Shown here: in pieces, positions 13,644 through 17,473 of the stretch
Position numbering within the stretch: the stretch's first letter is position 1
Layout of the letters: every line of letters starts with the position of its first letter
IMG/VR virus record: IMGVR_UViG_3300048834_000134
Span: 1 to 35,953 of that record
DNA: 35,953 nucleotides
Source: a virus
Reading direction: 5' to 3' (one strand)
Translations under genes and position numbers: made by a program
The notes under the pieces: generated by a model
Database searches by the model: none
The model's input: the letters and a program-made list of their open reading frames with translations, nothing else
What the model was told of the DNA's origin: nothing

Positions 13644-14084
13644 ATGGAAAATAAACTTTTAGAGTTTCAGAAAAAAATACAAGTGATAAAAAAGGATAGC
13701 AAAAATCCACACTTTAAAAACACTTACGCCTCACTAACACAAATACTTTCAGAGGTTAAGCCTATACTAAATGAATTAGGTTTAACCCTATTACAGCCTA
13801 TACATTCGGGAGAGGTGTTTACTGTTATTTTTGATAACGAAAAGAAAATTGCAGAGTCATCAATACCGCTTCCAACAATTTCAACACCGCAGCAGTTGGG
13901 TAGCGCAATTACTTACTTTCGTAGGTACTCTTTGGCTTCTTTATTAGCGTTGGAAATAGATGATGACGATGCTAATGCCACGCAACAAGTTTATGATACT
14001 GTTGAGAAAATAAAAGAGGCTTATAAGAATGGTAAAATCACAAAGGAACAAGCCACATTATTAAACGAAAAACTTTCTAAATAA
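13644..14084 (+). CDS. erf: ERF-family single-strand annealing protein
   Basis: A 146-residue recombinase that anneals complementary strands. The hallmark TPQQLGSAITYFRRYSLASL (81-100) followed by LALEIDDDDAN is the ERF signature (compare SPQ..GSA.TYARRYAL..LLG...DDDD). Also typical are KDSKNPHFKNTYASLTQI at 17-34 and the ELGLTLLQP strand. It is coupled to the next gene by an overlap of one base (TAATG) and follows the SSB-like gene. Confidence 0.93.
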   Translation: MENKLLEFQKKIQVIKKDSKNPHFKNTYASLTQILSEVKPILNELGLTLLQPIHSGEVFTVIFDNEKKIAESSIPLPTISTPQQLGSAITYFRRYSLASLLALEIDDDDANATQQVYDTVEKIKEAYKNGKITKEQATLLNEKLSK

Positions 14085-14993: not shown

Positions 14994-15047
14994 AATGAGG
15001 TATAGATTAGAGTAGAGGAGAGGAACGTAAGTAATTTTTATTGCTTA

Positions 15048-15140
15048 TAATGTTTTGCGGCTTTGTGTCTGTTTGCCCCTTGCACAAGGCTTCAAGTTAC
15101 TACAAATGTTGATGGGGCAAATAGCACAAAACCGCTGTTA
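15048..15140 (+). repeat. Palindromic cassette-type element P1 (after the 82-aa gene)
   Basis: Architecture: TAAT (15048-15051), 5-nt bulge GTTTT, stem GCGGCTTTGTG (15057-15067) with one mismatch, TCTG, inner stem TTTGCCCC (15072-15079), 34-nt loop, GGGGCAAA (15114-15121), TAG, CACAAAACCGC (15125-15135), a single T, GTTA (15137-15140). The left flank reads TTGCTTATAAT. After GTTA comes CCTGCT...AGCAGG (15141-15166), a small palindrome. No gene fits in 14994-15210. The same plan recurs in P2 and P3. Confidence 0.78.
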
Positions 15141-15210
15141 CCTGCTGGTGCGGTTAATTTAGCAGGATTTTGATTTGAAAACGAATAGAAAATTTAAAAA
15201 GTTTTAGAGT

Positions 15211-15933
15211 ATGAAATATATGGGAAGTAAGGCGAGATTTAGTAAAGAGATTTTGCCGATAGTATTAAAAGACAGAACAGACGACCAATGGTATATTGAA
15301 CCATTTGCAGGAGGTATGAATATGATTTGTGAGGTGGGTGGCAAACGAATAGCAAACGATATTCACTACTATTTAATAGAAATGTGGAAAGAACTTGTCG
15401 GAGGTTGGATTCCAAAAAAGATTACCAAAGAGGAATATTCAGAAGTAAGAACTAACCAAAGTAAATACCCTGCATATTTTGTTTGTTGGGTTGGTTTTAA
15501 TTGCTCTTATTCGGGCAAATGGTTTGGTGGCTTTGCAGGAGAAACAAAAACTAAAATAGGAACGGTAAGAGATTACCAAACTGAAGCAATAAACAATGTG
15601 GCAAAGCAAGTTGAAAAACTGAAAGGTGTAATATTTCAAAACAAACCTTACTATGAATTGGAATTGCCACCAAACAGTATTGTTTATTGCGACCCACCAT
15701 ACGAGCGAACAACAAAATATGCTAATGACTTTGACCATAATCTTTTTTGGAATTGGGTAAGGAATATTAGCAAACAAGGGCATACGGTATTTGTAAGTGA
15801 ATATAATGCACCTGTTGATTTCGTTTGCGTATGGGAAAAGGAGGCAAAATATTCTTTATCAGCAAATGGCAAAATCGGTGGCAACAAGGTGAGCGTGGAA
15901 AAACTTTTTAAATTTTCTCCCACAAATGTTTAA
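15211..15933 (+). CDS. DNA adenine methyltransferase (Dam/D12 class)
   Basis: 240 residues. The SAM-binding motif is YIEPFAGGMNM (28-38) and the catalytic motif DPPY (161-164) lies in VYCDPPYERTTKY; the start MKYMGSKARF is also typical. It would methylate adenine N6 in the phage DNA and could protect it from host restriction; no partner restriction enzyme is present. It is flanked by palindromes P1 and P2, so it looks like a single-gene cassette. I see no Bacteroidetes-type promoter directly before it. Confidence 0.93.
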   Translation: MKYMGSKARFSKEILPIVLKDRTDDQWYIEPFAGGMNMICEVGGKRIANDIHYYLIEMWKELVGGWIPKKITKEEYSEVRTNQSKYPAYFVCWVGFNCSYSGKWFGGFAGETKTKIGTVRDYQTEAINNVAKQVEKLKGVIFQNKPYYELELPPNSIVYCDPPYERTTKYANDFDHNLFWNWVRNISKQGHTVFVSEYNAPVDFVCVWEKEAKYSLSANGKIGGNKVSVEKLFKFSPTNV

Positions 15934-15960
15934 TAGTAGCAGTATCGTAGCACTTGCCTA

Positions 15961-16035
15961 TAACGCGATGCAGCTACACGCAGTAGCCGAAGCGTTGGTT
16001 TGTGCGGTCGGGGCTATTGAGTGTAGGTGCTGTTA
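15961..16035 (+). repeat. Palindromic cassette-type element P2 (after the Dam gene)
   Basis: TAAC (15961-15964), 5-nt bulge GCGAT, stem GCAGCTACAC (15970-15979), GCA, inner stem GTAGCC (15983-15988), 23-nt loop, GGCTAT (16012-16017), TGA, GTGTAGGTGC (16021-16030) pairing with one G-G mismatch, single T, GTTA (16032-16035). The left flank TTGCCTATAAC resembles that of P1. The 3' flank CTGCTGCTGCGGTTATTTAG resembles the P1 3' flank. Confidence 0.8.
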
Positions 16036-16085
16036 GCTGCTGCTGCGGTTATTTAGTAGAAACTTAATTAAAAACAAAATATAAA

Positions 16086-16709
16086 ATGAAAACGAAAACA
16101 TACAGAGCAATAAGACACGATGTAGTTCGTGCAAAGCAAAAGCAAAACGATAATGAAGTTCATCATCCTGACGAAAAGATAAACCAAATAAAACGCATTT
16201 TTGCAGAACTTGAATGGGATAATGATAAGAACCCAAAAATACTTGAAATGTTTGCAGGACAAGGTAACTTAACAAATGTATATGATGCCTATGGCGATGT
16301 AACTGCTTACGATAAAAAATATTTAAAGACAGGCGATAGTTTTTTAGAATATCATAGACTAATTGCAGATAAAAAGAAGTTTGATGTAATTGACCTTGAC
16401 CCGTATGGATTTCCAAATAGATTTTTCCCTGATGTATTTTTGCTTATTGACAAAGGTGTAATGTTTATTACAATGCCAAAACCTTATGTAAACATATTGA
16501 ATGGGATAACGCAAACTCATTTAATAAGCTATTTTGGTACACATAACCCGACTATGGAGCAGATAATTGAAAGAACCGTTTTATTTGGTTTGTGTCATTG
16601 GAGAAAACTTGAATTGATTGATGTAGTAGATTGTAAAAGTGTTTGGCGTTTTGCTTTTGCAGTTGAAAAGGTAAAAGCTACTGAATACACAGGTGTCCGT
16701 AATAGGTAG
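16086..16709 (+). CDS. Class I SAM-dependent methyltransferase
   Basis: 207 residues. Motif I is ILEMFAGQGNLTNVYDAYG (52-70), an acidic residue follows in TAYDKKYL, and the motif IV region is DVIDLDPYGFPNRF with DPYG at 105-108. DPPY/DPYG/DPFG forms occur in amino-group methyltransferases on DNA and on tRNA (Trm1 type), so the substrate could be either. In a phage, and beside Dam, DNA modification is the more likely use. It lies between P2 and P3 as its own cassette. ATG at 16086 is the first start after P2. Confidence 0.8.
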   Translation: MKTKTYRAIRHDVVRAKQKQNDNEVHHPDEKINQIKRIFAELEWDNDKNPKILEMFAGQGNLTNVYDAYGDVTAYDKKYLKTGDSFLEYHRLIADKKKFDVIDLDPYGFPNRFFPDVFLLIDKGVMFITMPKPYVNILNGITQTHLISYFGTHNPTMEQIIERTVLFGLCHWRKLELIDVVDCKSVWRFAFAVEKVKATEYTGVRNR

Positions 16710-16727
16710 TCTGGGAGCAGTTGCAGC

Positions 16728-16854
16728 TAACGAGTTGCAGCTAACCGACAGGTTGGGATTTAGAAGTACAAATTTTAATTTTAAACACAAAATATGAAAG
16801 TAGAAATAAACATCAATAAAGCACGAAAACCCACCTTGCGGTTAGGTGCTGTTA
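16728..16854 (+). repeat. Palindromic cassette-type element P3 (after the second methyltransferase)
   Basis: TAAC (16728-16731), 5-nt bulge GAGTT, stem GCAGCTAACCG (16737-16747), AC, inner stem AGG-T-TGGG (16750-16757), 72-nt loop, CCCACCT (16830-16836), TG, CGGTTAGGTGC (16839-16849) pairing with one G-G mismatch, single T, GTTA (16851-16854). The left arm contains a direct repeat, GTTGCAGCTAAC at 16720-16731 and 16734-16745. The long loop holds a 28-codon frame starting at 16794. Confidence 0.76.
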
Positions 16855-16893
16855 TGTATCAGTATTTTTTAAACTTTTAAAATAGCGAAGGAA

Positions 16894-17415
16894 ATGAAAC
16901 AAATATTTATGAATGAAATAAAAGCACTAAAGCCAGCAGTAATTGATTGGTTGATTGAAAAATTTAACTTGAATATTAAATACGAACATTCATTTAAAGA
17001 CCAATGGATTTCGGTTAATATTTGGGATGGGCAACTTACAATTTCATTTGATACAAGGCAGCCCGAACAGGTTGAATTATTTAACGCTTTGCCTACCGAA
17101 ATAAAAGGAACAAAGCAACACGGCACAGGCAAGATGGTAAACTTGCAGACACTTTATTTTGATATGAATAAAGAGTTTACCATTAATTACCCCGAAATAA
17201 AAAGCAAGGAAATTGTAGGCAAGGTAAAGCATACGGATAACGATGGAGATACATTTTATGTTTATAGTTGGCTTGTGGAAATGGATGATGAAACCGAAAT
17301 GATATTTACAAACCAAGACAATACTAAATTAGATATTGAAAAATGGATTTACCCAACACGAATACAAGAACGATTTTTAATTACTACCCTGTGCGGTGGG
17401 ATTTTAAAAGTTTAA
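16894..17415 (+). CDS. Hypothetical protein in cassette position (173 aa)
   Basis: I do not recognise this protein. It has an N-terminal helical part (IKALKPAVIDWLIEKFNL) and then mainly strand-like sequence (WISVNIWDGQLTISFDT; FYVYSWLVEMDDETEMIF), ending in ERFLITTLCGGILKV. No signal peptide or membrane segment is visible. It sits alone between P3 and the half-site at 17422-17437, as a third cassette. A defence or anti-defence role is possible from context but unproven. ATG at 16894 is chosen; Met6 is an alternative. Confidence 0.7.
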   Translation: MKQIFMNEIKALKPAVIDWLIEKFNLNIKYEHSFKDQWISVNIWDGQLTISFDTRQPEQVELFNALPTEIKGTKQHGTGKMVNLQTLYFDMNKEFTINYPEIKSKEIVGKVKHTDNDGDTFYVYSWLVEMDDETEMIFTNQDNTKLDIEKWIYPTRIQERFLITTLCGGILKV

Positions 17416-17421
17416 AAAATA

Positions 17422-17437
17422 TTGTGCCTAACTACTG
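17422..17437 (+). repeat. Left half-site resembling P1-P3 (P4, truncated)
   Basis: TTGTGCCTAAC followed by five bases (TACTG) mimics the left edge of the cassette elements (TTGCCTATAAC + 5 nt in P2), with TAAC at 17429-17432. No matching right arm ending T-GTTA follows before the next gene, so this is either a remnant or the boundary of the array. Confidence 0.42.
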
Positions 17438-17473
17438 TATATGCGCAACTTTAATACAAGTAACAACCTGATA

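Follow-up and report, generated by a model that had tools for sequence, protein, structure and literature searches.

A probable integron-type gene-cassette array of reversed polarity in a Bacteroidota phage, and its relatives in other phages

The region described here appears, with a probability of about 0.77, to be an integron-type gene-cassette array in a Bacteroidota phage that lacks an integrase of its own, each cassette consisting of a site and the gene that follows it, and being moved in trans. Read as an integron, the array lies on the minus strand, and the cassettes point the opposite way to the genes they contain. It is found in IMG/VR virus record IMGVR_UViG_3300048834_000134, the 35,953 bases of which were examined in full (hereafter the window), and its three palindromes are members of an extensive attC-like site family that is spread across Bacteroidota phages and viral contigs. 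An earlier note on this DNA had proposed an integron-like cassette array within a phage genome; this holds in substance, but not with regard to polarity, as each site goes with the gene downstream of it.

In the proposed mechanism, a cassette would be excised as a circle and its site would fold as single-stranded DNA, with the gene-sense strand taking the role of the integron 'bottom strand'. Within the circular cassette, the matching inverted ends of the unit would come together as one long R arm. Cutting between TAA and C (between G and TTA on the other strand) would fall to an integron-integrase-type tyrosine recombinase provided in trans, either by the host or by a co-resident element, and the circle would insert into the attI-like end or into a different site. 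The phage would thereby gain a renewable set of DNA-modification genes shielding it from host restriction.

Sites and cassettes in the window

The features of the array are as follows, all on the plus strand.

15048-15140: attC-like site 1, TAAT-GTTTT-stem-loop-stem-T-GTTA; leftmost in the array, and hence its distal end in integron terms
15048-15960: cassette 1, comprising site 1, an adenine-methyltransferase gene and a tail
15211-15933: D12/Dam-type N6-adenine DNA methyltransferase, 240 aa (PF02086, E 4e-17; phrog_56, E 5e-47)
15961-16035: attC-like site 2, found by the site scanner
15961-16727: cassette 2, comprising site 2 and a gene with a TRM1-like methyltransferase fold
16032-16040: start of the unit-specific terminal inverted repeat of cassette 2, GTTAGCTGC, the exact reverse complement of its end, GCAGCTAAC, at 16723-16731
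16086-16709: 207-aa protein with weak TRM1/DNA methyltransferase similarity (PF02005, E 7e-5, below cut-off; phrog_799, E 0.007; TIGR00308, E 0.001)
16728-16854: attC-like site 3, found by the site scanner, with a loop of about 80 nt
16728-17428: cassette 3, comprising site 3 and a gene of unknown function
16894-17415: 173-aa protein (ORF call)
17429-17450: array end, a putative attI-like half-site, TAAC-TACT-GTATATGCGC-AACT, with no hairpin after it; the motif recurs at other array ends

Three palindromes of one shared form (TAAY-5 nt-stem-loop-stem-T-GTTA) amongst three plus-strand genes had been described in the earlier note, and this description was confirmed, with each palindrome lying ahead of a gene. 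Site 1 differs in opening with TAAT rather than TAAC, and a near-identical copy of it is present at L004:85-176. Sites were located with a rule-based scanner that assigns a score, and across all sites loops range from about 10 to 100 nt. At a score of at least 9.5, sites 1, 2 and 3 are the only ones in the whole window on either strand; sites 2 and 3 exceed 9.9, with site 1 just below this value. Shuffled windows gave a mean of 0.2 hits at 9.9 or above, and three on one strand within 2.5 kb in 0 of 200 cases. By minimum free energy, site 1 is exceptional (z −4.5), with sites 2 and 3 both at z −0.7; as energy singles out site 1 only, the case rests on shared architecture and on relatives rather than on stability. 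A scan against Rfam gave no family match.

Conservation of folded shape rather than of sequence, as had been claimed, is supported: the stems stay paired whilst their sequence varies, and the TAAC/GTTA core is kept at the site ends. Equally, the strict GTTRRRY/RYYYAAC consensus is indeed absent, the sites in the window reading GTTACCT, GTTAGCT and GTTATGT, none of which fits GTTRRRY fully. Amongst distinct sites showing a difference between strands, the gene-sense strand folds the more stably in 88 of 104, as is expected if this is the folded, recombinogenic strand. A 28-codon ORF (window 16794-16880) also lies across the loop and right arm of site 3.

With regard to the cassettes, homology of cassette 1 with L002 spans window 15136-15957 and that with L041 begins at window 15136, with L042 matching as well; the 240-aa methyltransferase also reaches E 6e-13 against TIGR00571, under the cut-off. 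Homology between cassette 2 and both L026 and L027 stops exactly at the TAAC of 16728-16731, and that between L026 and L027 themselves begins exactly at a site TAAC. The 173-aa protein of cassette 3 gave no family match in profile searches, and has no relative amongst the viral contigs or phages. Complementarity between a unit's own start and end is confined within the window to the nine bases of cassette 2; cassettes 1 and 3 do not fit this pattern. The mismatched repeats of cassette 3 indicate that it is probably mosaic, and, judged by their sequences, cassettes 1 and 3 both look like mosaics. Outside the array, the window encodes terminase, helicase, primase-like and ERF genes (profile searches), with the ERF-family single-strand annealing protein (window 13644-14084) lying just left of the array, where it may add homologous shuffling.

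Occurrence elsewhere and the unit that moves

Copies of the sites between genes, as the earlier note had anticipated, were found in many other phages. Viral contigs chosen as holders of relatives of the two recognisable genes possess sites of this kind, as does the window, where three same-strand sites are split by single genes. Tandem same-strand sites likewise occur in L004, which has seven in a row with one gene between each, in L041 (LR745206, a 634-kb uncultured phage with four sites), in L027 and in further loci. The pattern of the short-loop sites occurs in at least 120 places in IMG/VR. Amongst isolated phages, the scanner finds that both sites of Polaribacter phage P12002L, which encodes a relative of the window methyltransferase, share the architecture seen here; sites are also present in Tenacibaculum phage JQ, and 17 Flavobacterium phages (Muminvirus, Lillamyvirus, Hattifnattvirus) carry 8-14 each. 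In 68 of 69 units, the ORF is directed away from the hairpin. In many units (e.g. L004, L116, L191), an AGTACGG-like motif recurs in the leaders of genes that are unrelated, within the first 20 nt and a few nt after GTTA; it may act as a binding site or form part of a promoter. A scan of genome contigs for a host gave matches only in contigs that had been assigned to MAGs of Clostridia or Ruminococcus. Of these, L042 (JAQVAJ010000262.1; 3.7 kb, Clostridia MAG) is the closest; it contains the methyltransferase cassette together with its site, and appears to be a misbinned piece of a phage.

Mobility of gene-plus-palindrome units is borne out by indels between related phages that have their breakpoints at site ends. 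Mymlan6-1, mumin6-1 and filifjonk9-1 possess flanks that are 99.6-100 % identical; between these, entire units occur in one phage and not in another, or are replaced by others, with every differing piece starting and stopping at TAAC; even the same-species isolates mumin6-1 and mumin6-3 differ by one unit. Breakpoints that separate segments sharing at least 98 % identity were counted once each amongst the 17 isolated Flavobacterium phages. TAAC accounts for 98 of 111 left and 48 of 68 right breakpoints, against a random expectation of about 4 % each, whilst GTTA accounts for 6 of 111 and 4 of 68, respectively, which is close to chance. As these phages are related, not all breakpoints are independent; counted by distinct query context, the TAAC values are 59 of 71 and 39 of 58. 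In viral contigs, homology also stops sharply at site ends, with some breakpoints at GTTA. A comparison of hairpin-sharing pairs, using strict 350-nt flanks, identified 15 pairs (six independent groups) in which the same hairpin and downstream gene follow a different upstream gene, and none of the reverse type. Together, the TAAC breakpoints and the hairpin pairs define the mobile unit as the site plus its downstream gene. A crossover at the 3′ GTTA, with each gene followed by its own site, was therefore not upheld, the breakpoint being the 5′ TAAC. Similarly, attC does not lie 3′ of its own gene with that gene in the cassette sense, but travels with the gene downstream. Relatives of the window backbone, sought via a 213-aa neighbour gene, were not found, and the window's own cassettes were not seen to move.

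Not all turnover follows the sites. Hairpins are sometimes exchanged without their genes, the methyltransferase unit having many different left hairpins. Between L041:5001-5845 and window 15136-15981, the leader (~80 nt) and tail (~70 nt) are nearly identical and the reading frame is far more diverged, as if one ORF had been exchanged for another within surroundings that stayed constant. Candidate clean indels inspected in viral contigs proved to be ordinary gene gains unrelated to sites. Since other gene gains in array-bearing phages ignore the sites, ordinary phage recombination is also at work, and homologous recombination of phages probably adds to the shuffling. The earlier note had held that relatives carrying the same genes without palindromes would count against it; relatives of the TRM-like gene in L028-L038 do lack palindromes, but these are diverged and lie in other contexts, and the idea survived. 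In L151, compared with L030/L031, a TRM1-like gene is inserted cleanly (679 bp) between flanks of 85-91 % identity with no palindrome, so that this gene also moves by another route.

If a cassette forms a circle, the sequence before the TAAC at the unit end must complement the sequence after the GTTA at the unit start. Unit ends complement their own start at 72 of 104 positions, a value reached by 0 of 20,000 permutations, compared with 41 of 104 for the start of the next unit; in a wider set the figures are 137 of 200 and 82 of 200, respectively. A partner end lies within 2.4 kb of 76 of 125 sites, as opposed to 6 with shuffled starts. In the Flavobacterium phages, matching ends are seen in 26 of 31 distinct units, against 2 of 25 in the comparison.

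Array end, cargo and recombinase

The motif at the end of the array in the window is also present at the array ends of L026, L027, L045, L052, L055, L118 and L130. Hairpin-less unit ends often start TAAC-T, whilst sites start TAAC-G in 99 of 108 cases. The motif TAACTNNNNT[AT]TNNNCGC occurs at 9 of 46 hairpin-less unit ends, compared with 15 of 18,441 of all TAACs; the 9 of 46 is a lower estimate, as selection of the ends relied on a cut-off in score and some are in fact followed by a hairpin, and, with the motif having been drawn from those same 46 ends, the contrast expresses recurrence and does not amount to an independent test. In the Flavobacterium phages, one identical array end, TAACTACAATATTACATG, is abutted by eight different terminal cassettes. 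The array begins with a hairpin and ends without one, and its right end supports the minus-strand reading, in which the order is that usual for integrons: attI, followed by cassettes that each end in attC. From these recurrent sequences, we infer that the right end of the array would work as an attI.

The cargo of 73 units falls into 38 protein families, the two largest of which are DNA methyltransferases; other cargo (Pfam) includes N6/N4, C5, MT-A70 and Mom-type modification enzymes. As had been noted, no integrase is encoded in the window (no hit to TIGR02249 or PF00589), nor does an intI gene lie beside the attI-like end there to make a complete integron. No integron integrase above the family cut-off is present in the 26 records scanned. 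Tyrosine recombinases of any kind are absent from the window, from 24 of the 26 records in all and from 14 of 14 isolated-phage records, and no serine recombinase was detected in the 15 records searched. The two exceptions, both in array-bearing viral contigs, are Xer-like tyrosine recombinases of about 280 aa (G011:C1:47823-48629, the record of L054, and G023:C1:21171-21923, the record of L131). These were rejected as IntI, being below its cut-off and having no match around model positions 182-243. As the window and the isolated phages have no recombinase that was found, the enzyme would have to act in trans or be of an unrecognised kind; an integrase would probably be supplied in trans, from the host.

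Alternative explanations and relation to known systems

The canonical orientation, in which every attC belongs to the gene before it and crossover occurs at the 3′ GTTA, would account for a bulge pattern that resembles a plus-strand attC, for the few cases in viral contigs in which homology stops at GTTA, and for methyltransferase units that are often homologous only from GTTA onward. It is nevertheless very improbable: TAAC breakpoints in the 17 isolated phages are at 17 to 21 times expectation with GTTA near chance, the hairpin stands at the array start with none at the end, and no hairpin that is shared together with its upstream gene precedes a different downstream gene. The breakpoint counts refute it for the isolated Flavobacterium phages, and a cassette made of a gene and its following site is rejected by the TAAC breakpoints, the unit indels and the hairpin-sharing pairs alike. 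Still harder to credit is that the palindromes are common RNA hairpins of the terminator or processing-site kind, lying between phage genes and alike by chance. Sites do sit between genes, and the gene-sense strand folds best, as RNA would; but there is no Rfam match, the inverted unit ends, exact unit indels and attI-like end go unexplained, and the breakpoint counts strongly disfavour it.

Host XerC/XerD or another non-IntI enzyme might act on the folded sites, which we regard as unlikely. XerC acts on the folded genome of CTX phage, Xer proteins are nearly universal, no IntI was found in the phages, and the GCGCATA of the attI-like end may resemble part of a dif arm. Set against this, no dif-like central region came to light here, the many different units per phage are integron-like rather than dif-element-like, and IntI1 recombines a P12002L site built in the same way (PMC9892861). 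A poorer candidate is that the sites are old attC remnants, and that present-day shuffling is the work of the phage's own ERF annealing, which would use the TAACG and leader sequences held in common and need no site-specific recombination. The window does encode an ERF protein, hairpins do get swapped, and the methyltransferase unit has a near-identical leader and tail in different phages around a diverged ORF; this is hard to reconcile with breakpoints that fall within a few nt of a 4-base motif between otherwise unrelated units, or with intact unit-specific inverted repeats, which short-homology annealing would not maintain.

The integron-type array remains the preferred reading, and it has close published counterparts. 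Qi et al. 2023 (PMC9892861) list 17 attC clusters in phages, including that of P12002L with two methyltransferases, call the directions of the P12002L sites divergent, and report that IntI1 recombined five of six phage sites tested, P12002L_attC2 included. The present array resembles these phage CALINs in having tandem attC-like sites in virulent phages, DNA methyltransferase cargo and no integrase, and its TAAC-4/5 nt-stem-stem-T-GTTA architecture is that of P12002L. The suggestion that the sites may constitute a distinct class holds only in part, given that the P12002L sites share the architecture and one is recombined by IntI1. Cassette arrays in phages are already published (PMC9892861), and P12002L has this type of site. 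The accessible portion of the article is without site-before-gene polarity, an attI-like end, extended unit-specific inverted repeats or turnover amongst near-identical phages; new here are the reversed polarity, the attI-like end, the breadth of occurrence and the natural turnover of cassettes.

Chromosomal and mobile integrons (Vibrio superintegrons, class 1) likewise possess single-gene units, folded sites conserved in shape, R″/R′ complementarity, variable cassettes at a fixed end and a strand preference. Here, unlike in those systems, there is no intI near the array, the genes are reversed (unusual for integrons), the carrier is a phage, the spacers are 4-5 and 1 nt, and the R arm reaches up to ~14 bp. 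Orientation can vary, as the Treponema denticola integron, for which PMC11014356 cites Coleman et al. 2004, is reported to have an unusual arrangement of integrase and array; an integrase is present there but not here. Folded single-stranded DNA is also what a host tyrosine recombinase acts on in XerCD-dependent elements such as CTX phage, but these integrate at dif and form no arrays, in contrast to the cassette arrays seen here.

A broader and more doubtful possibility is that an integron-like system of reversed polarity, peculiar to Bacteroidota phages and common to them, exists, with phage-borne attI-like ends and attC-like sites, DNA-modification cargo and a recombinase in trans that is none of the known IntI enzymes, by which virulent phages would exchange anti-restriction genes during coinfection. 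According to Nilsson et al. 2020 (PMC7077304), the Flavobacterium phages are virulent, and the lack of a methyltransferase is linked to poor plating on LMO6; the words integron, cassette and hairpin gave no match in a text search of the article. The plating link fits with cassette content acting on host range. As these isolated phages come with sequenced hosts (PMC7077304), the question of which recombinase moves phage cassettes becomes accessible at the bench, as does that of how a gene gets joined to an attC, genes and hairpins being seen here in new combinations. Virulent phages of one bacterial group appear to hold exchangeable anti-restriction genes in integron-like arrays, whilst not carrying the enzyme themselves.
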